From positions 6,937,177 through 7,001,176 of the forward strand of contig NC_049985.1 of assembly GCF_000003815.2 (NCBI RefSeq): a stretch of DNA of 64,000 nucleotides. Direction: 5' to 3'. A program made the translations under genes and the position numbers. The stretch is from Branchiostoma floridae (lineage: Eukaryota > Chordata > Leptocardii > Amphioxiformes > Branchiostomatidae). The notes under the pieces were generated by a model, which was not told the origin of the DNA, did not search any database, and saw only the letters and a list, made by a program, of their open reading frames with translations. Shown here piece after piece: positions 561-36,800 of this stretch (position 1 is its first letter; every line of letters starts with the position of its first letter).

Positions 561-3500
561 TCGGGCCCGCACCTAGTTCTGTGAAGTTCCGGAGCGACTG
601 CGCAAGGCTGGTGGTGGTGAACGAGGGCAAGGCCGGGTTGGACTCATTCGGGAACTTCAAAAATCCGCCAGGAACCATCTCGGTGGTGGACTTCGACATA
701 AATAGCTTGGGCGGCGGCACGCTGGCCTCCTACACGATCAACTTTCTCAGATTTGACCACTTGTGAGTAAGAAGTTTAAGTTGTATATGTAACGTATCGT
801 TATTAATCATCGTCCAATTTATTCAAAACTTAAGATGACAAAAATAGGTTGTGCACGATAATTGAATTTAATAGTCTAGGACAGTCCTGTACGGTCAAAC
901 ATGGCACCAAATAGCAGTTACCCAAGCAACTTGATCTGATTTTGGAAACAGTCAGATGTTGAACATTCAGGTAACGTTTATAGCATCCAATACCCTTTGT
1001 CATTGACGATGAGCACAATCTGTTGAAGAGCAGTTTTTTAACCCCAAACCCTTATACATCTTGCTATGTACAACCTCACACTCAGGGTAGACAATCGCGG
1101 CAAAGCCTAACGATATGATATCGTTAGGCTTTGCCGCGATTGTCAACCCTGAGTGTGAGGGTGGCTATGTAACACTTTGCAGTTGCTTGAAAAGTGCTAT
1201 TGGCGTATCTTTATTGATTCAGTGAATGAATGATTGAGTGAGTGTAAATAAGTGACTGAGTGCAGGAGTGAGGGTGAGCAAATAAGGGTGATATGAGATG
1301 AGTGATGAATAAGTGAATTGGTGAGAATTAGGGGTGGGTACCGGTACAGAAATTCAGGTCCAGGTCCGGTTCAGTTTCAGTTCCAGGTTCGTACCTGAAC
1401 CTGATTCAGTATGTGAGAACTTGTGAATGGTCGATACTCAAAAGTCAAAACAATTGTACATTTCTTTACAAAGAAATCTCTTTTGTGGATTATTCGACTC
1501 CCACTGATGTTTTAAAATCCTACAAGGCTAACTGCCTCTGTACTATTGACTTTATAACCTGGCAGAAATCACAATAGACTCTACTCTACTTTGCTCTTGT
1601 TATTTTCCTCGACTGGTAAGCCCCAAAACGTGTGAATGCCTGATCATATAATCTGTTCATTTTCCAATAGGTCCAACATCTGGTCCACTGAATTTTCTCA
1701 GGTGCGTTTTTTTTTTTCTGGACCGGTTTTGTACCGGTACACTGTACCTGTACCGACCCCTAATGAGAACTTATATAATGTACTATGACTTCTGTATCCC
1801 TGCAGGCAGGATGAGTATACAGCCCGGGGAGTTCGCTGGGTGTACCGGGGTGAAGGGACGGGTGTCCCCGGGAGGATGTCTGATGAGCTGGAGCCCGAGG
1901 ACTTCTCTTTCGACGAAACTGAGAACAAGATCTACGTCACCCTTCAGGTGTGCCCCCCTCCCTTCCATGATACAGATTTTACTATCAGTATACTAGCAAT
2001 TACATGTCACAAGTCTCATCTCCTTAAAACTGCAGGTTTTCCACAAACGAGTCTACAAAATGTATATCTAGTGTAATNNNNNNNNNNNNNNNNNNNNNNN
2101 NNNNNNNNNNNNNNNNNNNNNNNNNNNNNNNNNNNNNNNNNNNNNNNNNNNNNNNNNNNNNNNNNNNNNNNNNNNNNGAACAATGCGATAGCCGTGGTAA
2201 ACCTCACCACCCTGATAGTGGACGAGATCTACCCGCTGGGTGCCAAGAACTGGGCAAACTACATGTTGGACCCGAGCGACAAAGATGGCGGTGGGCATAA
2301 ATCAGACAAATTTAGCAAAATATAGAAAGATCTGCCAACATTTTGTATTCACTGCACTCAACTTCAGTTTCTATTACAAAATCATAAAGGCATTCATACT
2401 TAATTACTATGCCTTGTATCATAGCAAGCATACAATTTTTTTTACAACCAATATGCAATTTTTGATGGAATCTGGACTCTGTCTCTCTCAGGAATAAGGA
2501 TGCAGAACTGGCCAATCTTTGGGCTCTACCAGCCTGATGATGTTGTGTCCTTTACTGTGGGATCACGCACGCTTCTCGCCACTGCAAATGAGGGGAACAG
2601 CCGTGAACTGACTGTAGGGGGAGTCGACATCACTGACGAATGGAAAGGAAAAGATTTTATCACAAGTAGGCATGAAGTCATACATGAGTTAAATGATCTC
2701 ATGGCTCAGTAATATATTTATAGTTTGTCGTTATCTCTTCTTGACTGTGAAAATGAGGTTTTGATTAACTTTTTACAACTAGAGAGCATGAATGGCACAT
2801 GGAAAATTGCAAAAACACAGACAATTAGACAGACCAAAAAGTACCCTCCAGTGAATTTATTATTAATAGTAGCCTTTTAAATGGACTGTCTGTCTTGTCT
2901 TATCAACTACTAGTTCTAACAACTCTGAACTGTATACTTCCTGCAAGTCTGAAGTTTAACAATAACTATGGACACATACAAACTTGTAACTACAGACACA
3001 TACCAACACAGATATGCACCAAAATCTCAGTACACCAAGCCAAAACATCTATCCAATTTCTAAACTCAATCAGCTCAATTTTACATTTCTTTCAGATGGT
3101 GCTGTGGCCCCTACTGTACCCCAGACTCTTGTTGCTGCCTTGCAGGATGATGCTCAACTAGGTACGTGACTTTGAACTTAATATAGCCAGTGCATCTAAT
3201 CAGTGCAAGTATTGATAAGATGGGATCAAGAATTGCATGAACCCCTCTCTTACAACCAGGGCCTCAAAACTGCACTTATACCAAGAAAAGGGATGCGCCC
3301 ACACCACAAGGGGGCTCTCAAAAGCAAGCTTACTTTTTCAGTGTTGCTTTCGAAAAGTTATCCTTAGCTGTCAGTAAAAATCATGAATTTTCTTGGTTTC
3401 GTTTCTGTGTTAAGGTGTTCTGAGGTTTAGTAACTACGACGGGAAATCAGCTTCCAATCCTGGCCAATATGAGCAGTTCTACGCTTTTGGGGGCCGAGGA

Positions 3501-6011
3501 TTCTCCCTGTGGAAGGCAAGCGACCTCACACAGGTAAAGTAAAGCATCGTTTCCACTTTTGATGTTTAGGAAATTGGACTCTGTGAAGATTATATGAAAG
3601 TATCTGTTCAGACGTTAAAATCATATATCTTCTACAACCCCGTAATTTGGCTGATTTTGGACTGTTAATTTGTTCAGGAAGAACTAAAATTCATGAAAGT
3701 ATCTGTTCAGACGTTAAAATCATGTATAACATATCAGACTTCTACAACTCCGTAATTTGGATGATTTTAGACCGTTAAATTGTTCAGGAAGAACTAAAAT
3801 TCTTTTCGATCTCTTGACCTTGCTTGTTGTAATATCTGCAGGCCAGCCATAATTTGTACACATATATATTTATGCATCTGCATTGCATCAACATTAATTT
3901 TTTTCACCAGTTTTGGGACAGTGGCGCAGATGTAGAACTCCAGCACACACGTCATCTTCCTCTCATCTTTAACTGTGAGTTTGATGACGCTAACCCCGAT
4001 AAGAGCCCCATGGATGAGAAAGATGAAGCCTCCAAGAAAAAGGTAAGATCTCATGTATACAAATAGCATTAGTAATGAGGCACTGGGTACATCAGTTAGC
4101 TCCCTTGATTTTGGACCAAAGATCACACCTCTGGTGATGTCGTCCATCCAATTTACATGCATATATTACATCAGGGACACTGATAGGAAATTAGGTCAAA
4201 GGTCCCAGAATAGGTTATCTAAAGTTATCTCATTTTGTATCTTTGATTCTTTGTTATATGTCTGTTGCCTTATGGTAGCCAGTGGTAGAATCCATGGGCA
4301 GAATCAGCAAGAATTAAACAAGATATTGAAAATCTAAGCATCTCTCTCAGAGAGATATGAGATCTTCTTCATTGCATTTCTTGGTCATATTGTTTCATTG
4401 CCCCCTCCCCTTTCTTACAAGGGTCCAGAGACAGAATCATTGGTTGTGGCAGAGGTTTACGGGAAGACAGTCATCATCATCGGCAACGAGCGACCTTCAA
4501 GCCTGATGATCTACTCTGTAGATGCTGTTACAGGAATCCCCAGGTCAGTCAGATCAGAACATTACAATCATCCAACCCAATATCTGCTTGAAAATTTCAT
4601 TGAAATCATGCTGTTGTCAGACAATATTTCCTTTTAATCATCAAATTTTCAAAATATAACATTATAGTTAATTGGTCTTGCTCAGGAAGGCCATGATTTT
4701 CATAATAACTTTTTTTTTCAAAACCTTAATCTATATTCCATGAATCTATACGTGTATTGCATGAATCCCGCATCATACAAGCTAAGACTTAGGTCTCAAT
4801 TGGACAGAGGGCCCTGGTGGGCAGTTCACATGCAATTTTTGACATGACCTCTCCATGTCCCTATGAGACACCTTCTGGCTCCCTGGGTATTTTGGGGGCC
4901 TGATTGGGCACTGGGTTGAAATAGACGCCGTGACCTACCCGTGGGGAACACTGAGGGGTACACCCCGGTATCCAGCAGTTCACCGGGACAAATTTGTGGT
5001 TTCAGAGCCCGTCCGAAGCTACCTGATTCCATCTCTTATTTTTGTATGTAGTTTTGAGAGCATCTTCCGGGCAGGGGACATCAGTAAAAACTATGATGAT
5101 GCCTACAACGACCGGAACATTGGAGATCTGGATCCGGAGAGCATGAAGTGAGTATCATATCTAACACAGGAAGGAGGTTTACCTCCAGCAAGGGTTCAGT
5201 TTTCTGTTGTGTTTGGATGGTGGTGTGGTATGTGGTGGCCACTGGGGTTGCAAGCATACACCCCCTAGCAATACTTTCAGGTATTGCAGCATTTTGGGCC
5301 ACATACCATTTCTGAAAGTAGTGTGGTATAATCCATGGACAGCTGGTCAGATTACTGCTAAAGGAATGACCTACAAAATCATATGGGAGGTATTCTCCCA
5401 GCAGAGGTTGAGTTGCGGAGATAAAGTAGTCAGGATTTTTACTGGCTCGCTACTCTCACAATATATGGGAGGGAGATATCTGGGATTGATGAACAGACCA
5501 CAAAGAGAAAACTGTGGATAAGCAATGTCAACAAGGTCACTTTGGATTTGTGCTAATTTTAGATTATAGCATAGAACCTACATTGTGCACCACACATACA
5601 ATGGAACATTTAGTTTAAAGTAGATCTGGATTCTGTCTGGAGTTGGTGATTCACTACAAATCACCCGGACGGAGGCCTGGCGAACCTCTGTCTCGTATCA
5701 GCCATACGGTGATTTACATCATTTACCATGCCCCGGAGAGGAGATAGGCGCCACCATGGGACTAAAAGCCTGTTGAGTCAGCATGACAGTTGTCGTGTTG
5801 CCCCTATGGCTGATTGATCAACCTCCGGCTGATTGAAAAGCTATGGAACTTGTGAGTGAGTGAGTGAGATCCAGACACATTCACATTTTATTTTTCCTTC
5901 CGTGGCCTCAGGTTTGTGCCGGCTGCTGAGAGCCCTGACGGCACCCCCCTCCTGCTGGTGGTCGGCAACCTCAGTGGAACTGTGGCCGTCTACAGGGTGG
6001 TCGACAGCTAG
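561..6011 (+). CDS. MSP130-like glycoprotein (choice-of-anchor I family), 3' ten exons; 5' end off window
   Basis: The exons I read are 561-762, 1806-1947, <2178-2290 (5' edge in the N gap), 2492-2665, 3096-3161, 3415-3533, 3911-4042, 4422-4543, 5052-5147 and 5912-6011 (TAG). All have AG/GT borders and compatible phases, giving about 420 residues. Recognisable segments are VVVNEGKAGLDSFG, GVRWVYRGEG, NNAIAVVNL, QPDDVVSF, LLATANEGNS, YAFGGRGFSLWKASDL, FRAGDISKNYDDAYNDRNIG and the C-terminal VVGNLSGTVAVYRVVDS. These match the beta-propeller-like MSP130 family, first known from sea urchin skeleton-forming cells, and bacterial choice-of-anchor I proteins. The family is secreted or anchored at the cell surface; its biochemical activity is not established. 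The first exon here starts mid-protein (an in-frame stop lies at 536-538), so the signal peptide and N-terminal repeats are upstream. The family call is secure; a role in mineralisation here is only inference. Confidence 0.9.
1071..1163. mobile_element. hairpin MITE, hAT-type (8-bp target duplication)
   Basis: The whole 93 bp is a near-perfect palindrome: arms beginning CAACCTCACACTCAGGGT and, on the other strand, CACCCTCACACTCAGGGT meet at GATATGATATC near 1117. It is flanked by the exact 8-bp direct repeat GCTATGTA (1063-1070 and 1164-1171), the target-site length of hAT transposons. It has no coding capacity. Confidence 0.85.
1329..1762. mobile_element. non-autonomous hAT-like element
   Basis: The ends are TAGGGGTGGGTACCGGTAC and the inverted GTACCGACCCCTA. 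Flanking octamers GTGAGAAT and ATGAGAAC agree at 6 of 8 positions, like an aged 8-bp target duplication. The inside is rich in CCGGTTCAGG/CAGGTCC-type words and has no open frame of note. It resembles the elements at 32057 and 59269. Confidence 0.65.
2078..2177. other. assembly gap (100 N) inside the MSP130-like gene
   Basis: This is a placeholder run of exactly 100 N. It hides the acceptor and, judging from the reading phase, only the first few bases of exon 2178-2290. The true length is unknown. Confidence 0.95.
3594..3802. repeat. tandem duplication, two units of about 100 bp
   Basis: The segment starting ATGAAAGTATCTGTTCAGAC at 3594 recurs at 3693 and both units end GGAAGAACTAAAATTC. They differ by a short insertion and a few substitutions. 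It lies in an MSP130-like intron. Confidence 0.85.
5148..5911 (+). repeat. last MSP130-like intron, made of dispersed repeat pieces
   Basis: The 764-bp intron holds a piece around 5265-5345 that is similar on the opposite strand to 52385-52490 (shared phrases about TATACCACACTGCTTCCAG and CTTTCAGGTATTG). Around 5393-5460 is a relative of the CCAAGCAGAGGTTG element seen at 42376 and 46559. The part at 5640-5830 is GC-rich and structured; I cannot name its family. Confidence 0.4.
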
Positions 6012-9836: not shown

Positions 9837-12800
9837 ATGGCCTATATCATTCTACCAAGACTTCAACACCCTGCCGTGCACTCTATAACCAAGACCTTGA
9901 CAGTGAACAAGTTGTCACGGAAACTCCTCCTACCTTCTACTTGCTGTAACCCTGTTGGAGTTTCCAAATGTCTGTCAAACGTACACGATGTAAAGACGAG
10001 CAACAAATACTCCAGAAATACACACAACTCTGTTCATGGACTGTCAGAACGCCGTCAGGTTGAACTTTCATCTCTCACAAGAACTCAAGGACAATTTTCC
10101 AATAGGGCACCAACAGCATTCCATTCAAAAATTTTGTTACGTAGTCCACTGCAGAACCCATGGCTATCTGGGGTGGACTCATCAGGACTCCTTGTTCCTC
10201 CATATGTGGATGAGAGCAGACGACACTTTACACTGAACCCCAGGAAAATTGTGGAACAAAGTCCTAAACATGTGCGGCCATATCTACAGCTCATTCGATT
10301 TGACAAGCCCATAGGTAAGGCTGGTCCAAAATTTATCCACTTTTTTTTAATGTCAAAGTACTCTGTAGAAGTTAAAGATTCTGCTGCAAACTTGAGTGTC
10401 ACTGTGCCACAAAATTTAAATGCTGCATATTCTATTGCTAATGCCCAGACATGTGTGGGTGTGTTCATGAGTTCTCATCACTTCCTACATGTCTACAACA
10501 TTGGAGCATAGCCAAACCAGATATCCAATTCTCCAAGTAATATCCTATTACACCATTTTTGCCTTACATCCTGGCAGGCTACTGAACTACAGACACACGC
10601 CAGGACAAACAAACAAATAAACACACTAAATGACTACAATACCTCTGTTATCATTGACGCAATCATTTTTTAAAATCTTCCTTCAGGTTCCTGGCTGTTG
10701 TTCTGGCCGTGTGCGTGGAGTATTGGCATGGCGGCCACACCAGGACAGTTTCCTGACTTTGGTCTGCTGTTCCTGTTTGGTTTGGGATCTGTGATCATGA
10801 GGGGAGCTGGCTGTACCATCAATGATCTATGGGACAGGGATATAGACAAGAAGGTAACAAAAAAAGCTGTTGGTATGCTTTTCTGAGTTTTGGTCGTATA
10901 CAACACAACTTTTTGAGTAATGTTGCACATTTTAGTTTTACAAATGTGTGGTTTGAGTACTTAAAGATAACACATACATGTATTTCTTTCTCTAGGTTGC
11001 TAGGACGCGGTCCCGCCCACTGGCTAGTGGCAAGATCAGCAAACGTAATGCAGTGCTGTTCCTGGGAGCACAGCTGAGTGCTGCGCTGTGCATCCTGCTG
11101 TCACTCAACTCCTACAGGTAAGAAGGCAGCTAAGTGCAGTTCTCTGTATCTTACTATCCTGCTGTGCATTCTCTAAGTTAAGACAGCCCAGTAAAGGCTG
11201 TGCTGTTCCTTTGGGGATAGCTGAGTGTTCCATTGTACACCTTGCGATCACTCAACTCCTACAGGTAAGAGTAAAGGCTGTACTGTTCCTTGGAGTGTAG
11301 TGCTACATATACATCCTGCTGCCACCCAACTCCTACAGCTAGCTGTCACATAGTGGTAATAGTTGTTCTAGTAGTATCCAGTATTTGATTATACTGCTGC
11401 ATGCTGGGATCCATGACACAGGTAGGCAAGTCAGCCAGTCTTGCCTCTTATTAGAAATATTGAAGTTGTGTTTTCATGATAGACAAGACTACTACTTTTT
11501 GATGGCATGAAGAACTCCCTTTGTTTTTGTCCCAGTGTGCTTCTAGGCTTCTCCTCCATGCTGTTGGTCTCGACCTACCCACTGTTCAAAAGAGTCACCT
11601 ACTGGCCACAGGTGGTACTGGGTGAGTCTCTTGCATTTTTAGGATTATAAAAACAAACAAACAGATGAAGCAAAAATGTACAAATATTATGAAGAACACA
11701 GCCTTTAGAACACAGTGCTTAGGCACCCCTTTATGTGATTCACAGCCTTTTATCATTAAAATTGCTGCAAGTACAATTAGCTTCCTCAATGTTGTGAAAG
11801 AACAAGATGAAGATGACTGGACTTTGTTTATGAGAATCAACAATTCTCTGGTATCAATGACACAATATCATATTTTCAACTGTTGACTTTGCTGTTAATT
11901 AATGGTCTGCATAATTGTTCAGGACAAAATGCAGTTAACAACACTAAATCCAGCACTCTTGTACAGGTCTGACTATCAACTGGGGAGCTCTGCTGGGATG
12001 GGCCGCTGTCAAAGGAAGCTGTGATTGGTCAGTTGTTCTTCCGCTGTATCTCGGAGCTGCCGCATGGACTATGGTGTACGATACCATATATGCACATCAG
12101 GTGATATGATACACATGTATTCATTATTCATACATGTATTCTTATTGTATTCCTGAGATGTTGGACTTGAGGAAAGTACTAGCAATCATTTGAAAACTTG
12201 TGTCACTTCAGTTGTTGCAGTTCTGATAACCACTGCTAGATGGTGCTTTTAACTTGTGACATCTCTTTGTAGTTAGAGGGTTGAGATAGCGAAGCCTGTA
12301 TTGCTTTCGTTGGCTGCCCATGAGTTCAAATTTATCAGTAACAAACCCTTTTTTTTTGGAACGGATGAAAATTGATAAGTGAATGTCATTCATATCTTTA
12401 AGTCAGCATGGCCTAAAAATAATAACACGTCTCACAGTATGACAAAGTTTAGGTACCAGTCTAACTGTAAGCGATTGTTCTCTGTGATAATTCCAGGACA
12501 AGGCTGATGACATGCTGATCGGTGTGAAGTCCACAGCCCTAAGGTTTGGGGAGGACACTCGGGCATGGCTGTCAGGGTTCAGCGCAGCGATGGTGTTGGG
12601 CCTGCTGCTCAGTGGGCTCATGTGTGAGCAGACATGGCCGTACTACGCAGCTGTGGGCCTGACAGGTGCACACCTGTACAACCAGGTGAGTCATTAATGA
12701 CAGGTGCTCACCTGTACAGCCAGGTGAGTCATTCTTACCAATGTACCTGTACAGTAGCTGCACATACTTACACTCAAGTTTATACCATTTTGTGGCACTC

Positions 12801-20400: not shown

Positions 20401-23400
20401 TGGGCACTGGTGGGTCCTTTGTGGTAAGCCATTGACATGACACCCAACCATACTTCGCATTGCAAGGATGTGTGAATTGCTTTCTTCCTAGCCCACTGAC
20501 CCAATATTACAAAAAATGGTAGAAAATGGTAAATAATGGCAAAATGCTGTTACCATTGTTTACAAACTGTTAGGAGTATTCTGTTCCACATCGTGAATAT
20601 TTCAAAGGTTTTACAGACCTGGGAAAATATTTAGAAAGTTCAAATAGCATTAGAAATATTTCAAAAGTATAAAATCTCTTGGACCTGTAATTGAAAACAA
20701 TTGAAACCATTTGTAAATTATGACAATAGCAACCCTCGCGGTGACTCGGAATCGACTCTACGCTTTAAAAATGTGTAATTTACAATTATAGTCAATACAG
20801 CAAGAATTAACTTGACTTAAAGACAAATGTTATGTAGAAACGACAATTGATCTTACATGTAATTAGAACACTCCAGGAAGAATAGTGACATATCAGTCAC
20901 TAGAGGAGATCTGTATCAAACCAAACCAAACCAAACTGACCTGTGGGTGGTGGGCTCCGTTCATGCCGCGCATGTGCGCCACAGTCCTGTTCTGGGGCTG
21001 GGCCAGGGCGCGGGCCTGGGCGACTGTAGTCTTGCCATGGATTACACACGTACTGCTGGCAGGCCGGGAGGATTGCACTGCTGGGGAGGGCTGGGGGACG
21101 CGGCTCACCGGGACCGAGGAGCGGTGGGGGTGGGCCGACTGCAGCTGGGCGGGGGGAGACACGGGGACGGGGACTCGAGATGTTCCAGTAGACGTCTTCA
21201 CCACCAGAACCTGGAGAAAGGCAAACAGGGCATTTTGTAACAGTTCCACAAATAGCTTTGCTACAAGTACATGTAATAAATGTAACAGGTACAATGTTTG
21301 ACAATCTACTATTGCACTATTTACTATTTACTAAATCTAACAACAAATATAATCCAATCTAATCTAACAGTATAGACGATCTAGTTAATGTTATACAAAC
21401 TAGTACTTTGAACATTATGTCAGTATACTGCTTCAGGAAAGTACAGTAGCAGTAGAAGTATAGCATACTTTTTTTTTACTTAATGGTCACCACATAACAA
21501 GACCTGATGGTCATTTCAAGGTGTGATTCGAAGGCCACTCCAAGGTTACAGGCTACAGTGTATGATAATGTATGCTATCCCACCTGCTGTGGTGCAGCAG
21601 TGCTGGCCGTCACCACTATCTGCGGAGGGGGTCCCCCTCCTGACTTGGAAGCGTTGGAAGATGCCGGTCTGCCTGAGGAGGAGGGGGTAGTCCTGGCGGA
21701 GGGGGTTGAGGAGGTGGGCCGGGTGGGGGGTGCTGAGGAGGCGGGGCGGGCTGGCGCCGACGATGTGGAGCGTGTGGGCGTGGTGCTGGTCACAGCTCTG
21801 TGATATCACATACAGGGACACGTCAATGACTTTAGCATTTACAATTCTATTTCGCACTGCAGCTTGGTGCTGCTGCCATCATTGCTGACTGATTGTATTG
21901 ATCTATTTATGTGACATTGTTTGATGTTTGGGACTGAATTGTTAGCAGCAACCATGTAATGTAACAGTGCTGGTCACAGCTCTGTGATATCACACACAGG
22001 GACCCATCAATGATTCAATCAGGTTTGCAATACTGACTGGTTCTATTTTGCACAGCAGCTTGGTGAGTTGGCTATTTTTGCTGCCTGACTGTATCTATCT
22101 GTATATGTGATTTATGATGATTGTATATGTGATTATGATATGTGATTGTTTTATGTTTGGGACTGCTTTGTCAGCAGTATCAGTGAGAAATAAAACAACT
22201 TCCTTGTGTAAGTTGTGTTCAAGTTGTACTGGACAAATGTATTCTTACTCATGTGATAGAAGACAAAAGTACTTTTTACTACTCCCTGTGCAATATTTGT
22301 AGATTGTAAAAGTACTAGTCTTAGCACCTTACTTTTGAAAAATGTACTATTTGTTTTAAGAAGAAAGGTTGCAAATAACAAACAAATACCTGGTGAGCGG
22401 CTGTACGTAGTTGCCGGGGAACATGCCCATCTGCCCGGTGCGCAGCGAGGTGCCCTTGAACCAGCCGTCCTGCATCTTCTCACACACCAGGTAGATGTCA
22501 GCCTTCTTCAGCTCCAGCTCGTCACTCTTCTGGGGCTTGTATGAGTACTTGGCTACGTACCTGTCACGGAGAACCACAGCACGGATCAAACTACGCCCTC
22601 CATGTTGTTGTGAATGTTTGGAAGGCTGAGCTAGTACCTGCTGCATGTTAGTTGGGTTCACATTTATCCCAGGAGGATGGCTACAGGGCAAAAGATAGGA
22701 ATGTGCCCAGGTCACAAATACAGGAATGCACCCAGGGTCCACTTTTATGCCATACAGTGATCTAGCGTATTCGACACCTGTACATGTTTTTGGCCTGAGA
22801 CAGTGCAGGGTGCAAACCTTTGGTCCAAAAACTAGATTTTGGTCCTTTTCTTTAGGCCTGTGCCAACTAATTTGAAGTGTCCAGTCCATAACTTGAAGTC
22901 ACCAGAAAACAGAAAGCACTCAAAGTGATTGACTTTGTTGTCACAAGAGCCTCCTTGTGGGATAAACGTAAACTGCAGCATCAGCTAGTAAGGTTTTGGG
23001 GGGAGGGGGAAGGTCCAGATCTTTATAGCAACCAACCTGATATGCTGAGGTTTGTGCAAGTGCCTGGCCACACACCTGAAATAGGAATAGGAGATGAAAA
23101 TTGCAGCAACTACTGTTCTCTCTACATGCTCTAAACGCACCTCCGCCCACAAGACAGATTTTGTAACAGTAATAATACCTAAGGCTACAGTTCCTTTGAA
23201 TGTCTCTAGTGCAAGAAAGAAACAGAGAAGGAGAGCATAGAAAGGTTGATTTGCCAGCAAGAAAAGCTGAAACCAAAAAGTAATTGTTAATCTTAAATCC
23301 CCAATGGGAGATTGAAACAAGTTAGGCTGTTGTGACAGTGCAACATAATACATGAGTTAACACTACAGAACGGTATTTGTTAGTATAAGAAGCATATGCT

Positions 23401-24775
23401 CAGTGTTTAGTGGACATGTATGCTAAGCATAAGACATAAACAATAGGTAAAGATGTATTTCTTCTTGGTTTATCGCATAATTGTTGTTACACATGTTCAC
23501 CCATGTACTTGAGACATTGCAATCCAATGTTATGCTATGTTGTTACAAAGAGAAAGTTGGAAGACCAAACAAAAGGACGAGGAAAAGACTTTCATCAATA
23601 CATTTTGTGAACCATTCAATTTTTTCAAAAGTCATACAAATGTATGTGTCTTCAATGTAGTCCTGTTTTCTCTAAAGTCCTACTTGTACCTACATGACAG
23701 AGATAATTTTGTAGATTTGTTTACAATTGGTGTTTATATGAAATACACAAAGGAAGGACTTAGCCATTGAGAATAAATAAAGGCTTTGACTTAACTTGAC
23801 TTGAGAATATTGAGTTTTTTTACTTTTATGGGACCTTGAAATACAGTACCCCTAGGGTACAAAGCAAATTGTATGACCTATAAATGCACTACTGTGATTT
23901 TAAAAAAATCCCAATACTTACACATTGGATGGCCCCTGGTTAGGTACTATTGTGGGTGATGATGGCTCTGCTGTGCTTTTTCTGGTTGGGCCATTCGCCT
24001 GCAAATTCTAACAAACCCACAAAATGTTTATTTGTCATAGGGACTAAATTACACAATGTCATCATATCCACCAATTCATTCATTTTGTCGGAAATGTACC
24101 AGTGGAAAATGGACAAGATGTAATATTGGGCGAACTGCAGCATCTTAAAAGCCATTCTAGTTTACCAATACCTCCCTTCTTGCATTCACATCTTGGTAGA
24201 AATCTTTCAACTTTTAACAAAGGCATTCTTGGATTTAGATTGGACCAGCTAAAAAAATGGCACAGGATAGAAGAATATAAATTACTACAGCATATGTTAA
24301 GGATTGCAGTGATGCTACATCTTTTTTTAAAACTACACTAATAAGGTTTTGCCAAAAAATATGGACTACATTCCTTCAATTCTCAAAACAATTGTCAAAA
24401 GTGAACGTATTCCTTCAAGAAATGCCTCTGTCCCTGAGGTGTTGCCAAAAAAGTTATGATATTTGAGTGTCTAGCTACATAAAAATGCAGTGCAGACTCA
24501 CAGTTGCAGTGCCTGGTGAGGGGGCAGGTTCAGGTTGAGAAGTGGCGGCCGCTGCTGCAGCTGCTTCTGCACCCTGGAGGGATGGGAAATGTCATTAAAT
24601 CTTAATTACCTGTCCTACAAATTGTATCTTGACTAGACGCTGATCATAACTAAAACTGTCCTAAGGCCTACATTTATGGGTATGTTCGTGTACATACTCA
24701 CTGAAGTAAACATTACATACAGGACTTGGTACAATTGTGGTGCTTACCTTTGCCTAGAAGGTTTTCGGTGCTGCT

Positions 24776-24825
<50 letters not shown>

Positions 24826-27800
24826 TGTGTGTCTGTGTGTGTGTTGTGGACAGCATAAATAGAGAAGCTGTGGATAGATCCTCAAGATATTTGGTAGGCA
24901 GCAGTTAAGAAAACAAAGATCAAGTTTGACAATGGGCCTCCTAGCAGCTTTCTGCAGTAACGCAGTGGAACTTCCTGTTTATAATGTACTAATCAATTCA
25001 GCTGATTTTCATGTGCTATTACTATAGAATTAAAAGACTCCAAACTCAAGTTTATCCAGCTTAACAAACAAGTCAGCAAAACATGATATCCCTTTCATGT
25101 GGCCTAACTCACATGGTACATAAGATCAAAATCTTCCCTCTCAATTTTCACCACAAAGCATTGGAATGTGCAATCCTTGCTATAACTTGTCTGTGACACC
25201 TTTATCAGATAAGAAGTCATCCCTAAAGCACATTAAATCTGATCCACACTAAAGATGATCTTGGTGATAACATGGAACCATCTAGCCCTGCCACAGAACA
25301 AGAGCAAGCCTATGCATGGCTGTCCCTTTTGAAGATTTAAGCTGCTCCTTGACATGAACGTTATTCATTATGGTAAGAAGTCATCCCTAAAGCACATTAA
25401 ATATGATCCACACTAAAAATGATCTTGGTAATAACATCCACTGTCTAGCCTTGCCACAAAACAAGAGCAAGCCTATGCATGGCTGTCCCATTTAAAGATT
25501 TAGGCTGCTCCTTGACATGAAAGTTATTCATTATGGTAAGAAGTCATCCCTACACTAAAAATGATCTTGGTGATAACATGAAACATCTAGCCTTGCCACA
25601 AAACAAGAGCAAGCCTATGCATGACTGTCCCTTTTAAAGATTCAGGCTGCTCCTTGACATGAAAGTCATTCATCATGATGTCAGAGGGAACAAAAGCGTG
25701 ACCTCTGACGATGCTGTCAATCACCGGTGAGGTCAGGAGTGACATGTGGGGATCAGGTGGGGAGGACAATACTAGCCTGCGTGTCTGCCCGGAGGTCAGC
25801 CTGGGATCACTTGTCTCATTCTTCTAGAACACATTGGGGATCCAGCCAGCAAATATATTTCCCATTTTATGAAAAGGCAGGGATAAATCTCATGAAAGGG
25901 GAGATATGAGTTCCACGTAGGTGGCAGGGAAGAAGGGGAAGGTGAAGGTTGAGGTGAAATCATTACCTAGATCGGTACGTGTAGCGGCAAGAGGCAGAAC
26001 TCCAGTCAGAACCTCTGATGATTGTGTCTGATAGACACCATTACATACACAATGTAAGCGAAGTGAACATTAACTGATTGCGTAACAGAATTCTCTATAT
26101 CTTGTTTTTGGTACCGTTTGTTCTTGTGTCTGCCTGTCTAGAAAACACACACTCCAGAAGCCGTGGATGGATACTTATTATATTTGGGAGAAGGATAGGG
26201 ATCAGGAAAACGAAGGTCAAATTAGATAGTGGACAGCTTTCTACAGTACTGAAGCAGAACTTCTTGTTTTCCTATCTCATGTTCTGGACATGCTGTGGTT
26301 TTGATTTTTGAGTGGTAGATAGCGCTCGTAGGACACGTTATCTTGATGAAAGACGACCCTGACATCTATGGAACTGAATATTTAGGCAACCTGAAATGCA
26401 GTCAGTACAGCATGGATATTTTCCACAATGTAGAAAAAAATCATTTTGGAGGTATGCTCTGTTAAAAAAAGCGGAGCTGCACTGCACTACTACCTAATAG
26501 AAAAGTGTCATGCCTTGTCCTCGGACTGAGGTCGCCTGCTTTACCTTTCTTTAAGATGATGTCCTGAGATGACCTGTGCCATGTAATTTCTCAAGAATAG
26601 TTCCCAGGGAAATCAATAGGAAGACCTGAGAGGTCAATTGTCTTCACACATCCTTGAGACATAACCCCTGTCCTGATCTGAACCAGCCAGTGGAAAATCT
26701 ATGATTGATGATCATATCAGACTACACAGGCTGGGAATTTGACTGACGAGCACTGCGGCCTCTAAGATAAGCAGGTATACTCTTGAGGAGCAAGGAAACT
26801 GTGTCCCCTGGACATTGATTAGTGTGCTACATGTTCCCAACAAGACACCAAAAAAGTTCTTCATAGATTTTCATCATTTGTTTGTGTGTGTATGTCTATT
26901 TGTGTGAGTGAATGAGCATGTGCATGTGTGTGCTACTTTTGCATATGTTTTTGTTTCAGTCAGACAGTGTGGTAAGCTCTTACCTGTGTGACAGGTCTCT
27001 GATGGTTCTTACCTGTGTGACAGGTGTATAACAGGTGTGTTCTGGTCCTTACCTGTACACTGGAGGTATGACAGGTGTGTGACAGGTGTGTTCTGGTTCT
27101 TACCTGTGCAGTAGGAGGAGGTGATGAGGAGGATGGTGCACTGCAGGTGTGACAGATGTGATCTGTTCTGACCTGTATTACAGGTGTGACAAGTGTGTTC
27201 TGGTTCTTACCTGTACAGTAGGAGGTGATGAGGATGGTGCACTGGAGGTTTGACAGGTGTGTGACAGGTGAGTGACAGGTGTGTTTGGTTCTTACCTGTA
27301 CAGTAGGAGGTGATAATGAATATGGCACACTGGAGCTGTGACAGGTGTGTAACAGGTGTGCAACAGGTGTTTGACAGGTGTGTTCTGGTCCTTACCTGTA
27401 CAGTAGGTGGTAAGGAGGAGGATGGTGCACTGGAGGTGTGTAACAGGTATGTGGCAGGTGTTTGACAGGTGTGTTCCTCTTTCTTACCTGTACAGTAGGT
27501 GGTGAGGAGGAGGATGGTGCACAGGAGGTGGGACAGGTGTGTGACAGGTGTGTGACAGGTGTAGAACAGGTGTGTGACAGGTGTGTCTGGCCCTTACCTG
27601 TACAGTAGGAGGTGAGGATGAGGAGGTGTTACAGGTGTGTGACAAGTGTGTCTGGTTCTTACCTGTACAGTGGGAGGTGAGGAGGAGGATGGTGCACAGG
27701 AGGTGTGACAGGTTTGTGACAGGTGTATAACAGGTGTGTTCTAGTTCTTACCTGTACAGTAGGAGGTGATGAGGAAGATGGTGCACTGGAGGTTTGACAG

Positions 27801-30800
27801 GTGTGTGACAGGTGAGTAACAGGCTTTTTCTGGTTCTTACCAGTACAGTAGGAGGTAAGGAGGAGGACGGTACACTGGAGGTGTATGACAGGTGTGTGAC
27901 AGGTGTGTTCTGGTCCTTACCTGTACAGTAGGAGGTGATGATGAGGATGGTGCACTGGAGGTGAGACAGGTGTATGACAGGTGTGTGACAGGTGTGTTCT
28001 TACCTGTACAGTAGGAGGTAATGAGGAGGATGGTGCACTGGAGGTGTCACAGGTGTGTTCTGGTTCTTACCTGTACAGTAAGAAGTGATGAGGAAGATGG
28101 TGCACTGCAGGTTGGACAGGTGTGTGACAGGTGTGTGACAGGTGTGTTCTTACCTGTACAGTAGGAGGTGATGAGGAAGATGGTGCACGATAGGTTGTGT
28201 AACAGGTGTATAACAGGTGTGTGACAGGTGTGTCTGGTCCTTACCTGTGTAGTAGGAGGTGAGGATGAGGATGGTGCACTGGAGGTTTGACAGGTGTGTG
28301 ACAGGAGTATAACAGGTATGTGGCAGGTGTTTGACAGGTGTATCCTGGTCCTTACCTGTATGGTAGGTGATGAGGAGGATGGTGCACTGGAGGTGTGACA
28401 GGTTTGTGACAGGTGTATAACAGGTGTGTTCTAGTTCTTACCTGTACAGTAGGAGGTGATGAGGAAGATGGTGCACTGGAGGTTTGACAGGTGTGTGACA
28501 GGTGAGTAACAGGCTTTTTCTGGTTCTTACCAGTACAGTAGGAGGTAAGGAGGAGGACGGTACACTGGAGGTGTATGACAGGTGTGTGACAGGTGTGTTC
28601 TGGTCCTTACCTGTACAGTAGGAGGTGATGATGAGGATGGTGCACTGGAGGTGAGACAGGTGTATGACAGGTGTGTGACAGGTGTGTTCTTACCTGTACA
28701 GTAGGAGGTAATGAGGAGGATGGTGCACTGGAGGTGTCACAGGTGTGTTCTGGTTCTTACCTGTACAGTAAGAAGTGATGAGGAAGATGGTGCACTGGAG
28801 GTTTGACAGGTGTGTAACAGGTGTGTGACAGGCGTGTTCTTACCTGTACAGTAGGAGGTGATGAGGAAGATGGTGCACTGGAGGTATGACAGGTGTGTGA
28901 CAGGTGTGTCCTGTTCCTTACCTGTACAGTGGGAGGTGAGGATGAGGATGGTGCACTGGAGGTGTGTAACAGGTGTGTGACAGGTATTTAACAGGTGTGT
29001 TCTGGTTCTTACCTGTACAGTAGGAGGTGAGGATGAGGATGGTGCACTGGAGGACAGAGTGTTGGAGTCTATCCTGGCAGCAGCTGTGGGGTTACTGGAA
29101 CTGATCAGCACAGGGGCACTGATTTCCATGGAATGCCTGCAGGAACCAATCAAAACAATAATTCACATTCAGTATGGAGGGGAAAAGGCCTCTTCTACTT
29201 TCAAAGATAACAGGCTAATGCTGGTCACAGGTACTAGCTGACCAAACCTTCCAACCCTCTGCAGAACATGGTTGGGGGTAAGTCTCTGTGGCTGGGAGTT
29301 GGTCGGGAAGATTGCCTTCTTGTCTTTAACAAAGGTCTGAGCCATCGACTTCAAATTTTGAATAAGCAAATTTTGAAAAGTTATATTCTGTTTGGATACA
29401 ATCAGTGGAGCACACTGGAGCTAGAATATGATTGATTCTAAATCTAAAGATCTATTGAGACTGGATGGTTATCAAAGAATACCAGTTATCAGAGAAACCA
29501 AACAATGAGAAAACTGTATGATTGTCCATCCCAAATCTCTGAAACTCAATGATGCTTAAAACTATCACAAAAGTTCATGTTCTATATGTAAAACTTCAAA
29601 CTTGGAGAGTCACAAAAGGAGAATCAACAGCGACACAAAGTACTTACCATAGTTTGTGAGTTCCACAGTTTTGCAAGGAGGGACAAGAAGACATAAAAGC
29701 AGCAAGCAAGTGTTAGAATGGCCACAGAGCGAGACACCAACAGAGCAATGACTACAGTACAGGTACACATACATGACATGTCAGAGCTGTCTCCAGGACA
29801 TGTCCCTCCGTCACAGGTTAGTGACGTCTTACTGAGACTGACGAAAATTTGCCATCTTTCCAAAAAATCTGAATTCCACGACATGAGATTGATTGAAATT
29901 TGCTTGCTTCAGCCAATAATGACAGATTCAACAATGAAAATTATAGCTCTTTCCCAATCTCTCTCATTAACAATGAGAGAGATTGGGAAAATGTAAAGGT
30001 GGAGACAGCCCTGATAGACACAGATAATTTGAAGCTGTAGTGTTACATGTAGAAAGTAGAAAGCACAGACATGTACAAAAGAGCCTTTCATCAAGTTATA
30101 TGCTACTTCATAAATATATATATGTAGTCAATATTATTTACTCAATATTTACTCACATATATATGTATAAATGTTGGGAAGTGCTCAACAGTAGTTGATG
30201 GTGAGACAATAAATAATTCTACATATTGCCCTTTCTACAGGTTTTCCTACAAACTACACTTAACGTTTTTTCTAAAATATCCCCATAAAATGTGTCATAC
30301 AGCATAAATGATTGGTTGCTTTTTAAATTGCTACAAACTATGAAATATTGAGGTTAAAGATTCTTCATCTTTTGTGTAGAAATTGTAACAGAAATGTTAT
30401 AAAAAAAACAATATGTTTAACTCTTGTGTTTTTCTTTCTCTTCAGCCTATTGCTCCTCACCTGTGGTTACTCTGTGGATGAGAAGCTTTGTTGGAGGTGG
30501 TGAGGAGTGTGAACGAATGTCTCTTGGCTTTGTCCTTCTTGCTCTTGGTGTCGTGGTTGGAAGAGGAGTTCGCCTGGGTACCGGAGGCCGCACTGGATGA
30601 TGGCAAATCCTCCGGGGACTGGCTATCTGTTCTAGCTGGGGCTTGACTACAGGAAGAAAAGAAGCAAAAAAGATGATATGAATCAAAATGTAACATACTA
30701 GGCACTCCATCCATCATTGAGACGGTGGGCGTTATAAACTTACTGGCACATTTAAACAATTGCTGACAACAATTGCATTTCAACAATCACATATCCCCAA

Positions 30801-33800
30801 GATCACGTGTCTGTAATACTTGCGAGTTTTTGTTCTGAAGTGATTGGTCATCAGTATTGATCCTGAAGAAGGCAATACTGGTTGTTGATATAAAAAAATT
30901 CATATCATAATATTATATCAACGAATCAAAAGATTAAAACAGTCATGCTAAAAAATGAAAATGAGAACTTACATATTGGGTTCTGCATCAGTTGATTCAT
31001 TTCTAGATTTGGATTTCCTGTTGTAAAGAATTAAAATAGACATGTAAACTACATGTAAAGTAATGAACAAAATTGTAAACTTTCATATTCACTAATAACT
31101 AATTACCAGGTAGGTAATCATTACTAGAAAACCATAGATGAGAAGATTCTGAATCATTACATCCTTGCAGAATGCCTCCATTATGTGTGTTAAAGATATG
31201 CTAACTTAGCACAAATTGCCAAATGCACTTGCACAGGTGGTTTACAGTTTTTGGCAACGGCTCAGGGGCTTCTATTCCATGTCAAGGCCCATATTGGTGT
31301 GTGCCTTCAATGACCCAGACCTGCTACACTACAGAAAGGTTTTGCATTTGTATTTACCTGTCTATAAGACTCTTTGCTGCTTCATTCATCTGCAAGAGGA
31401 AATGGTAGAAAATGCTGTCAGCAATCATGACAAATGGCATCAACATAGGCAATGCAAATCTACTCATTCATCTCTTAAGCTAACACATGGGGTAAGGTAT
31501 AGCCTAGTTTACCCAGTTAGTTCCTCAGGTACAAAATACATAAATAACATTTATTGTACCAATCTAATTAGTTTTATCTCTAATTAGTTCATTATCTGCT
31601 CCCATGATATGAAACTTTTCCCTTTTCCAAAATTTCCCCCACCTAACAGTAACATGATCCATTCCATTCCTACACTTATTGCACAGGTGTGCAAGGCAGA
31701 ATTCACTTACTTCCACAAAGGAAATAGGAAAGATGCCTATCTTGTCTCCTATCATCCCTTCTGCCCAGTTCTCATCGACCCGTCGTATCACTGTCACAAT
31801 TTCATCCTGCGGTAAAAGGAAAAAAATGTCAGTCCTTTCATACAACACCTATGCAAGTAGGAAAACAAATTGTATTTCTGATTACCTGTCAGACTGTCCC
31901 TTGCAGAAACCTACCAATTGAATACAGACCCAACCTTCAAACACTGAATACATATTTATGGTAATAAGTACTCTGTCAAGACTCTAGACTCTAGATAACA
32001 GTGAGTTAGTGACAGCTATCACATCAGCATACCTCAAAGCCATGTTCTGTCCTCACTAGTGGTGCGTACCGAAGCTCACATTCCGGTTCAGGTCCGGACT
32101 CGAGTCCAAAGATTCCGGTTCAGGTCCGGACTTATAAGTCCGGTTTTTTTACAGTCGCTATTATATTAAAAGTTTCCCAATTAACGTTAGACACAAGCAT
32201 AATGCGACTTGCTCTACTGCGGCGACCCATTTGCGTATCCGGCGCCCGCCGCTGGGCCGCATGCTATCAAAATATTACCAAAGACGACTGCATCATTTTC
32301 AAAGGTGTAGAAACATCGATTTTTAATAAAAACTATCGGGAAATCACGGCAAAATTCGACATTTTCCGCTTGTTTTTTTGACGGCCGAAATTTCAAAATG
32401 GCGCTTGCGAGGTCATAGGGGTCAATGGGATAGCCCACTGTAATGCGGGTAGAAATGATGCGTGCAGTGTTTTTATCTTCTACATTTAACCGTAAAATTA
32501 ATTTTAAATTTATTCGTTACAAAGATAAATGCAGGAGGTATAACATAAGTTCATGAACTTAAAACTTTTTCTAAAATAGAACGTGCCGGTGTTTCTTTTT
32601 AACAAGCTACTCACCTATGCTTTCAGTGAAGTATCCCGGCAAGCGGCAAATGTCATTTACAGTCGCCGCGCCGGAGATTGAGATTTGTTTTAGAGTAGAG
32701 TAGAGTAGACGTCATTCGTCATTCATTTTAGCTTGTTTATCTTGGAAATTTTCTTCATTTTTAGAAGATATGGGACTTAAAACCCATACCAGGAGATAAA
32801 CAAATCCACATGCTTTATTTTCATGGGTAACCTTGCTAAAGTCAACCTGTCATTTTTACCGCGTTGCCGGATTTTGAAAGAAGGTTGCCGCGGCGCGACC
32901 ATGTGCTTGGCTGTGGCTTATGGCGGTAGGACAATACGCAGAAATACGTTATTTTCTGGCCTGTTGGCTGCGATTAAAAAGTTACATAGGCATCTAGCGT
33001 TGTTTTTAGATGTTACTAGTATACAACAAGAAAGAGATTTCCGGTTTTCCAGAAAACCGGTTTTTGACGTTCCGGTTTTAACCGGACTTGAACCGAAAGT
33101 TATAGCAAGTCCAAGTCCGGTTCGGCGAACCGGTACGCACCACTAGTCCTCACCAAGGTGCTAGTAAGTGCAAGGCCATGCACTATTTTGATTTCTGACT
33201 GACTGTCAATGATCTAAATTCTAAAGGCACCGGTGTTTCCATTTTATGAATGTAACTTTGTTTCAACTGCAAACTTAAACTTTAGACACTTCATTTTCTA
33301 ATTCAGTCAAGTCAGTCAAAGTTCATTCCCGCGCCTGATGGCGCATAAGGCGGCGCCCATCTCCGTTTCAGTAGCCCTGGGACACACAACTTTGTGCAAT
33401 CACTACAGCAGGAGGCTAGTCCAATGGTTCTAATTACCGTGACATTACCCTGCAAACTTTAAGCCATTTACGGCAGTAGAGATACATGTATGTAGTGTTT
33501 GATTTCAAACAAACTGCCAATCAGTATAGGTCATGATCTTTCACGGCCTTGGAGTTAAAAATGGCACACAGGGTGTGATTCATAAAACCTATGGGTACCA
33601 TTCAGAACTCCCATGGACTGTATTATCAGTAACTGATGGTCAGGGCAGATTTTCATGCTTACACAAAAAGTGCTATGTCAGCCATTCCAACAGTCAATTT
33701 TTTCAAGAAAATGCTAGGTCAGTACAAAATACTCCATCCAACCACACTGTGGAAGAAATACAGTAGTCCAAATGACATGACCATTCCTGGAGGGAAAATC

Positions 33801-36800
33801 AACTGCTTCCTCTGACAAATATTGCCTTAAGTTTTCAGTTTACATTCTTGTTACAAATATCTAGTCACAGTGCATTTGTTTTTCCTATTTATGTTTCATC
33901 ATTTACCTAACAAGCCATATACCAGTCTACATTCTGTGCACTGGAGAGTGCTTCAAACGCCAATTCACTGTTTACTTGGACCAACTCTGCTATCAAATTT
34001 ATTCCACAGTCATGAATCTTTAATGTGAGAGGAAGGTTTTCTGCAACAATTTCAACCTTGTACACACTTAAACTTGACTGCTACTCACCGATTCTTTCTT
34101 TTTTTCATTTTTCAATTTTATATTTGTCTTGTTCACCTCTGCTGTCAAATTTATTACATGAATTTTTAATGTGAAAGAAAGGTCTTCCGCAACAATTTCA
34201 ACCTTGTACACACTTAAACTTGGCCGCAACTCACCAATTCTTTTTTCTCATTTTTCAATTTATTGTTTACCTGTTTCCCCTCTGCTATCAAATTTGTAAT
34301 GAATTCTTAATGTGAGAGGAAGGTCTTCTGCTACAACTTCAACCTTGTACACACTTAGAACTTGACTGCTACTCACCGATTCCTTTTCTTCATTTTTCAA
34401 AGGCACATATTGCCTTACACCTTTGTAAGATTATATTTATGTTATCATTCCCACTTTACAAGATTTCCTTTTAGTCAGACGCTCTCACATTTCACAGAAG
34501 TTCTCCTGTGATCTTTTTCGGCCTGCACTTGTGAATTATTGATAGTGTCTGTTTTGGCAATTTTGGAACCCGGCAGAGTCCTATAATGGAAGTCACTACC
34601 TAAAGACTAACCTTGGATGTCATGGGGGGATAATAACACCTTTAAACCTGATCTGGAAACAATTCAAGTATCAAGTTCAGGGTTGTCTGAGGTCAGAACA
34701 CCTTGTTATGAGTAGGGGTGAGCTACTACTAGTAGTAACCTGGTTTTCACCCATCACTTAGTCTAGTTCTGGTTTGCTCCTTTGAATGCTTCCCTGCAGA
34801 ATAGCCCTTTCAACCGTTGGCCTTTATATCATGAATCATTTCAGGGATCAAATATTTTCCAAAAGCAGTGTTACTAGGATCAAATTCAGAATAATTGGAA
34901 CAGGGGACCCTGTTTCCATGCTGTAACAGAAGAGCATGTGAGTGGGAGCCAATCAGAGCTCTCTCTTTCAATTTTCCTTGAAAATTCCAATTTTGACTGA
35001 TTCTCTGTATTAAAGGGAGACTATTTGGCAAGAAAGTGATTAGAGGACCAAATGAAAGCTAGAAACGGATGGGCACCAGGCTCGTCTGCTAATGCTTGGA
35101 TTTGACATTTTCTACACTAACCTACTGGGAACCTTAAAGGAAAGCATCAGAAAATCTTCAATTCATTATTTTCCAGCAGTTTACTCATTAAAAAGTTGAT
35201 TTACGTCAATTTTTACATTAATCCGCCCAATATGACCCTGTAGACACGTTTGAACTTCGCGCTCTCCTCCCCTCTCCCGCCGCGCTGGCCGATGACGTAA
35301 TGACATAATTCGTGGAAGCTTACGTGTAATTATCGCTGTGCTGTCCGGAAAGGAGAAGGTAAGAATTGACTCGAACTCGCTCCTGTAACAGTCCAGAATG
35401 GCACGGTGCGTGAACCTCCCCCAAGTCCATTGTTTTCATTTCGTGCCGTCGCGCGGTTCACTCGCAGACAAGCCCATTCATGTTCAGTTTCCCGGGGACT
35501 ATGGCTTCGTAGACAGCTCATAACGCGACTTACAGGTCCACGAAGTTAATTGTCAACAACAACGAACTGGATTCCAGAATGGCGGGGTGATTTCCCGCCG
35601 AAGGGACCGAGGTTCCCCGAACAAATGGCTGGCATGGCCAGAAGTTTCAATTCTGATTTGTGACGTCAGAGCGCAGGCAATCAGAACGAGGCCATTACGT
35701 CATCGGCCAGCGCGGCGGGAGAGGGGAGGAGAGCGCGAAGTTCAAACGTGTCTACAGGGTCATATTGGGCGGATTAATGTAAAAATTGACGTAAATCAAC
35801 TTTTTAATGAGTAAACTGCTGGAAAATAATGAATTGAAGATTTTCTGATGCTTTCCTTTAAAAGTCCTATAAAAAATGCCACACTCAGAGCACAACCCTC
35901 GTTAAGTATTTTGCAGAAGAGAGAAAATGGAGTGCTTGCAGTAGTTTTTAGATTTAAGTTAAAACAAGGGGGTAGATGTGCAAAAGAGAGAACAGGCATT
36001 TTTGCGGTGGCTTTAAGTTTAACATAAAAGGTGAAGAGGATACCGTAAAAACTACAAACACTAAACCGTCGCAAAAACTTCAACATCTTGCATCAACTTT
36101 TAAACAAAAATGGTCAACATTTCTAGTATCTTGTATCGACTTTTAAACAAAAATTGCCAAAAAGCGTTCCCACTTTACCTTCTCAAAGGTTAGACAGTCC
36201 TTGTCTTCTTCGTTGTCCGTGACGTCGAACTTGTACTTGGCCTTGCCGGTGGGCTGGTCAGGAGGAAGTGGGTGTATGACGTCCACATAGCTGACCGGGA
36301 AGAACCCAATCTGACCGTTCAGCTCGCCCTGGTACCAGTTCTCGTCAATCCGCTGTCGTAACGCTATTATATCTCCTTTGTTGAAAGACAAATCACTGGA
36401 GGAAAAAACACAGACTTTTAACTTTTTTTCAAAAACGAGATTGTTAAAAGCAAGGTCATTACACCACTTCAAGGCAGTAACTATGAAGTTGGAAATAACT
36501 GTGCCGGAGATAGCTGTGGATATTTGTTTTGAAGGCTGATAGTAGTTACTTTCTAAAACTTCTTGAATCCTAGTCTTGCTCCTGCAGCTAGCTACAGTGT
36601 CCTGTACTTTGTCAAAGTTCACAACTGTTTAGATCTAAACTACGAGCCTCAGGACACAAGCTATAATAATTCACTTCAGAAGACTGAGAATCATACTTAA
36701 AGTTATACCCTGGCTAGCATTAGCAGTCAGCATCGTGCAAATCACAGCAAAATTTAAGAGGATATTCCACAGAGGATAATGCCAATATGATACCATGGCT

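Follow-up and report, generated by a model that had tools for sequence, protein, structure and literature searches.

Tandemly duplicated exon-intron boundaries, termed 'mirages', have been described in amphioxus in Adh3 and in the globin genes BflGb6 and BflGb9 (PMC3087553). A second report likens PGBD5 to mirages and cites troponin C (PMC3902484). According to the account in PMC3087553, mirages keep AG and GT in many of their copies while regular splicing appears undisturbed. The unit spacing quoted there is 10-72 bp for Adh3 and 150-160 bp for BflGb6 and BflGb9, and the copy number of the BflGb6 mirage differs by haplotype (6 and 3). The authors of that account suggest that new introns may originate from mirage copies, which in their view could also serve as cryptic splice sites; the gain of introns from tandem arrays or internal duplication is also cited there (Zhuo et al. 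2007; Gao and Lynch 2009, cited in PMC3087553). Here we describe a tandem array in an intron of an SH3RF/POSH-like gene, on the minus strand of a 64-kb stretch of Branchiostoma floridae contig NC_049985.1 (the window, from the first letter of which all positions are counted). The array is very probably such a mirage, namely a passive intronic minisatellite that arose by duplication of an exon-intron boundary and is removed together with the intron.

The array resembles the amphioxus mirages, as they are described, in its tandem copies that span the boundary, its kept splice signals, its location beside an authentic boundary and its signs of concerted turnover. It differs from the BflGb6 mirage in its size, with 26 copies and remnants against 6 and 3 copies. 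It also differs from the quoted spacings in that its donors are 65-111 bp apart and that an 11-bp sub-repeat is nested within it. Judged from its sequence, the array is a long, nested representative of a repeat class known from amphioxus.

The minisatellite of human IFI6 (6-16), which lies at an exon-intron junction, offers a second comparison. It contains multiple splice donors (Turri et al. 1995), and two downstream units are reported to be used as donors (cited in PMC4526556). The use of the present array donors is thus possible in principle. Both minisatellites supply repeated splice donors. Those of the present array are potential donors, and splicing at 24 of the 25 would disrupt the reading frame. 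The array also resembles the intron-gain cases, since duplicated AG/GT boundaries are raw material for new introns or exons; what is seen in the array is a duplicated boundary rather than a new intron or exon. The literature search on the array returned nothing that names SH3RF or POSH, and no claim is made that the array is unpublished.

Anatomy of the array

The features of the array and its boundary are listed below.

29013-29136, minus strand: parent exon of the SH3RF/POSH-like gene, 124 nt, open in one frame, ending in phase 0 with a CAG/GTAAG donor
29137-29141, minus strand: acceptor TGCAG of the parent exon, read from the sequence
29008-29012, minus strand: donor GTAAG of the parent exon, read from the sequence
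26968-29012, minus strand: tandem array of exon tail, donor and 11-mer spacer, with 23 exon-tail copies and 3 donor-only remnants
27675-28188, strand not assigned: first copy of a 514-bp block, from self-comparison
28365-28878, strand not assigned: second copy of the 514-bp block, from self-comparison

Both the gene and the donors are read from the minus strand, which places the array downstream of the parent exon in the sense direction. The copies were searched using the 34-nt exon tail alone as bait, with the donor excluded and at most 12 edits allowed. This search returned 25 matches that consist of the parent, 23 copies and one spurious match (27336-27362, 12 edits, inside 11-mers), which was dropped. 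The copies exhibit 1-7 edits in 22 of 23 cases and 9 edits in the last copy. The identical search of 20 kb elsewhere on each strand returned 16 and 9 matches, the best of which have 10 and 11 edits, respectively; since the best control match has 10 edits, the last copy, taken alone, is near chance level.

The donor excluded from the bait nevertheless accompanies the tails. GTAAG abuts the match directly in 22 of the 23 copies, and in the remaining copy (at 27103) the match ended 5 nt early, at CACAG/GTAAG, hence GTAAG is present in all 23. The donor-only remnant within the array (~27170) reads GTCAG, whereas GTAAG is kept by both far-end remnants (27012 and 26983). GTAAG is therefore intact in 25 of 26 copies and remnants. 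It is preceded by CTG in two copies, which are paired members of the duplicated block.

These results agree with the first-pass annotation, which had claimed a splice-donor minisatellite of ~24 units beside its parent exon at 26968-29012, with each unit consisting of the last ~35 nt of the exon, the GTAAG donor and intron, and with most donors intact. The coordinates are the same, the units consist of ~34-nt tails, donor and 11-mers, and the 24 units formed by the parent and the 23 copies align across the exon-intron boundary. The three donor-only remnants were left out of this alignment.

The repeat is nested. Each unit consists of the exon tail, the donor and ~1-5 copies of an 11-bp spacer sub-repeat, CACACCTGTCA. 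The donors of exon-tail copies are spaced by 65-111 bp, with a final step of 51 bp. The 514-bp blocks are 98.8% identical at an offset of 690 bp, which suggests recent turnover in the array. The copies also decay towards the far end, where edits number 6, 3, 6 and 9 in the last four exon-tail copies and donor-only remnants come next; one mid-array copy with 7 edits is an exception.

The mirage assignment follows from copies that span the exon-intron boundary and from an anatomy that matches the published amphioxus mirages. The tandem unit contains the boundary, the splice signals are kept in many copies (GTAAG, as counted above), and the array starts in the intron directly beside the boundary at 29012, which we infer to be the donor used in mRNA. 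The array would have originated by tandem duplication of a segment that comprised the last ~35 nt of the exon, the donor and the beginning of the intron. Slippage and unequal exchange would then have enlarged it, with the nested 11-bp sub-repeat and at least one recent duplication of the 514-bp block. The spliceosome would recognize the 124-nt exon by its own acceptor and the first donor, and would remove the array in full along with the rest of the intron. The array is most likely spliced away without effect.

Donor strength, reading frame and donor constancy

Donor strength was estimated from the base pairing predicted between each donor and the U1 5' end. Of the 25 array donors, 23 reach at least the -11.0 kcal/mol predicted for the parent donor, and the other two give -8.0 kcal/mol. 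Among 3,906 other GTs on the minus strand, 0.38% reach -11 kcal/mol. The array is thus a ladder of potential donors with a predicted strength similar to that of the parent.

The use of these donors would have consequences for the frame. The first in-frame stop after the parent exon is at +273. Three array donors precede this stop, two of which shift the frame, and the 22 donors beyond 28760 fall past it. The remaining donor is the only one of the 25 that gives an open in-frame extension.

28756-28760, minus strand: array donor that would extend the exon by 252 nt (84 codons) in frame, from the frame scan

The other 24 would shift the frame and/or pass an in-frame stop, which favours the passive reading. 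We took it as our own yardstick that an array that tunes the linker would keep the reading frame from repeat to repeat, and only 1 of 25 donors does so.

An AG is present 31 or 34 nt upstream of 17 of the 25 GTAAG donors, which could delimit micro-exons, although a single micro-exon of either length would shift the frame. The 18 acceptor candidates examined (16 at 31 or 34 nt and two at 37 and 40 nt before the donor) exhibit a mean pyrimidine fraction of 0.68, compared with 0.65 for the parent acceptor. The mean for 2,038 other YAGs is 0.50 and 10% of these reach 0.68, so the acceptor quality of the candidates is ordinary. Branch-point-like strings were identified upstream of 5 of the 18 candidates and not upstream of the parent acceptor, and were set aside as uninformative.

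The remaining claims of the first-pass annotation are accordingly divided. Its ladder of competing donors stands as a ladder of potential donors that are strong by prediction. The micro-exon lengths of 31 or 34 nt were correct as lengths. The acceptor-like sequences noted before the cores are of ordinary quality. The proposed tuning of the POSH linker is not supported, given the frame breaks and stops described above.

The constancy of the donors was assessed by counting non-majority letters per column among units, which are not events on a tree. Owing to the block duplication, the 24 boundary units, parent included, were reduced to 18 that were treated as independent, and the six units of the duplicated block were excluded from the column analysis (18 units) and the 11-mer analysis (17 spacers). 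The nine donor columns (ACAGGTAAG) exhibit 1 change in the 18 units (1/162 letters), compared with 2.35 per column elsewhere. The 48 11-mers in the 17 spacers were accepted at 7 or more of 11 matches to the consensus, so badly decayed copies are omitted. Their core ACCTGT exhibits changes in 6/288 letters, compared with 36/240 at the other five positions. ACCTGT is the reverse complement of ACAGGT in the donor and has no donor role on this strand. Since this core is nearly as constant as the donor, donor constancy is not counted as selection on splicing, and donor conservation was rejected as proof of use. The constancy goes with the hexamer, whichever way it is oriented, rather than with the donor as such. 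It may be explained equally well by mutation or exchange acting around this hexamer, or by a role in DNA binding. Far-end decay and a donor constancy that needs no splicing role are both counted for the passive reading.

The following observations weigh against this reading. The nine donor columns are the cleanest of the unit, and an equally low count is exhibited by 1 of 56 windows and by 4 of 200,000 random nine-column draws. The donor block (1/162) is slightly cleaner than the 11-mer core (6/288). The AAG at +3 to +5 is invariant in the 24 aligned units and lies outside the ACAGGT/ACCTGT hexamer, so its constancy falls outside the hexamer argument. Lastly, one of the two neighbouring boundary duplications on the plus strand has lost a donor, hence donor loss does occur.

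Coding constraint on the exon-tail copies was also considered and rejected. Third codon positions of the tail vary more than the others (2.93 vs 1.77), but not clearly so (permutation p 0.068). The excess is carried by two columns where TCC/TCA slippage is likely, and third-position variation is 1.92 without them.

Alternative readings of the array

The most probable alternative, itself unlikely, is that array donors are used in a small proportion of transcripts, most of which would run into premature stops, such that full-length POSH would be lowered in proportion to copy number. The 23 donors that are parent-like by U1 pairing are consistent with it, as are the 22 donors past the +273 stop, the frame shifts at two of the other three and the clean donor block. 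However, a motif without donor role is nearly as constant, and the parent donor is both nearest to the acceptor and equally strong. The published mirages, as far as PMC3087553 and PMC3902484 describe them, also appear not to disturb splicing. If this alternative were true, part of the POSH pre-mRNA would be diverted to decay and array length would set POSH dosage, which would vary among individuals and cells as minisatellites do.

A role at the DNA level, in which the array acts as an enhancer or a factor sink through a dense homotypic cluster of CAGGTG/CACCTG E-boxes, appears quite improbable. Such E-boxes are of the type bound by Snail/ZEB and E proteins. The plus strand exhibits 56 CAGGTG and 0 CACCTG within the ~2-kb array, compared with 26 and 25 in the other 62 kb, and the motif core is the constant part of the 11-mer. 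However, such counts arise from tandem amplification alone. The constant hexamer is ACCTGT rather than the E-box, as the C that completes CACCTG is altered in 5 of 48 11-mers.

Even less credence is given to self-masking at the RNA level, where ACAGGU of the donors would pair with ACCUGU of the nearby 11-mers, which are similar to the U1 end, such that the ladder silences itself. The predicted chance that positions -3 to +3 are wholly unpaired is on average 0.0003 over the 26 donors (parent included), compared with 0.034 and 0.062 at AGGTRAG control sites (13 on the same strand and 13 on the other strand, respectively), and the mean unpaired score is below all 60 spacer shuffles (z -3.1). However, the mean unpaired score of 0.33 is barely different from that of the natural controls (0.34 and 0.36), the 13 same-strand controls include two that seem to be copies of a single site, and the stricter measure gives a shuffle z of only -1.7. 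With a predicted value of 0.0007, the parent donor would be masked to a similar extent, hence masking gives no basis for a choice between it and the array donors.

The reading proposed in the first-pass annotation, in which the array varies the POSH linker through functional micro-exons (31 or 34 nt) or alternative exon ends, or serves as a splice-factor decoy, can draw on the AGs before 17 of 25 donors and the open extension at 28760 but is hardly credible, as one such micro-exon shifts the frame, nearly all extensions break the frame or pass a stop, and the third codon positions of the tail are not clearly more variable.

Host gene and neighbouring boundary duplications

The array is hosted by a gene for which the following further features were identified.

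22356-22898, minus strand: SH3-domain open frame downstream of the array, Pfam SH3_1 1.7e-14
36143-36628, minus strand: SH3-domain open frame, from Pfam
31564-31848, minus strand: SH3-domain open frame, Pfam score under the cut-off
24502-24573, minus strand: candidate next exon, 72 nt, phase 0 to 0, 24 residues, one of two candidates from the splice-site and frame scan

Six of the nine pieces scanned have no Pfam match, including the open frame that holds the parent exon. The frame at 22356-22898 matches an SH3RF1 chain (7nzd, 3.5e-14) after two SORBS1 chains (2lj0 and 2lj1) among solved structures. For one other of these SH3 frames, an SH3RF1 chain (4.3e-14) is among the better matches, while SORBS1, GRB2 and endophilin chains score higher. 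The linker peptide of exon 29013-29136 appears to resemble vertebrate SH3RF1, and the name SH3RF is given mostly because of this likeness. SH3RF should also contain a RING domain, but none was identified in the pieces searched, which make up only part of the window. No Pfam match was obtained for the candidate exon at 24502-24573. If it is right, the host intron is ~4.4 kb long and nearly half of it is array.

Two similar structures are present nearby on the plus strand.

10674-10883, plus strand: stretch of a UbiA-family gene, Pfam UbiA 3.5e-14
10996-11118, plus strand: further stretch of the UbiA-family gene, Pfam UbiA 3.8e-8, just under the cut-off
10996-11362, plus strand: boundary duplication in the UbiA-family gene, exon end at 11117, donors at 11118 and 11265 (GTAAG), and a dead one at 11339
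12660-12735, plus strand: boundary duplication with a 38-bp unit, exon-like stretch ending at 12685, donors at 12686 and 12724 (GTGAG)

The plus-strand gene is presumably COQ2-like. Its copy at 11339 has a donor changed to CT (CTAGC) and thus lost. The unit at 12660-12735 holds the inverted pair ACAGGTG/CACCTGT, as in the large array. The exon-like stretch ending at 12685 has no Pfam match and is assumed, by position and likeness, to be part of the same UbiA/COQ2-like gene.

The window was scanned for duplicated donors as AGGTRAG sites at most 600 bp apart with at least 28 of 44 letters matching. One pair was identified outside the array (12684/12722), together with ten plus-strand pairs within the array. 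Acceptors were scanned as three pyrimidines, any base and CAG under the same limits, and the single pair outside the array (11111/11258) is in fact a duplicated donor. No duplicated acceptor was therefore identified outside the array within these limits, and ones that miss the limits would escape. Boundary duplication is not peculiar to one place in the window.

Elsewhere in the window, identical open frames flank a run of N at 53946-54046 (53678-53899 is identical to 54377-54598, and 52786-53022 to 54670-54906). The repeated frames at 52786-54906 may represent a scaffolding duplication or a haplotype duplication. At 1789-4634 there are parts of another plus-strand gene, the frames of which presumably resemble a choice-of-anchor or secreted glycoprotein family.

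As an ordinary mirage, the array would be a natural stress test of splice-site choice, where the gene presumably still splices despite 25 extra donors, 23 of which are parent-like by U1 pairing, within ~2 kb downstream. The presence of three such structures in one 64-kb window suggests that boundaries are often duplicated in this genome, a point relevant to the origin of new introns and exons.

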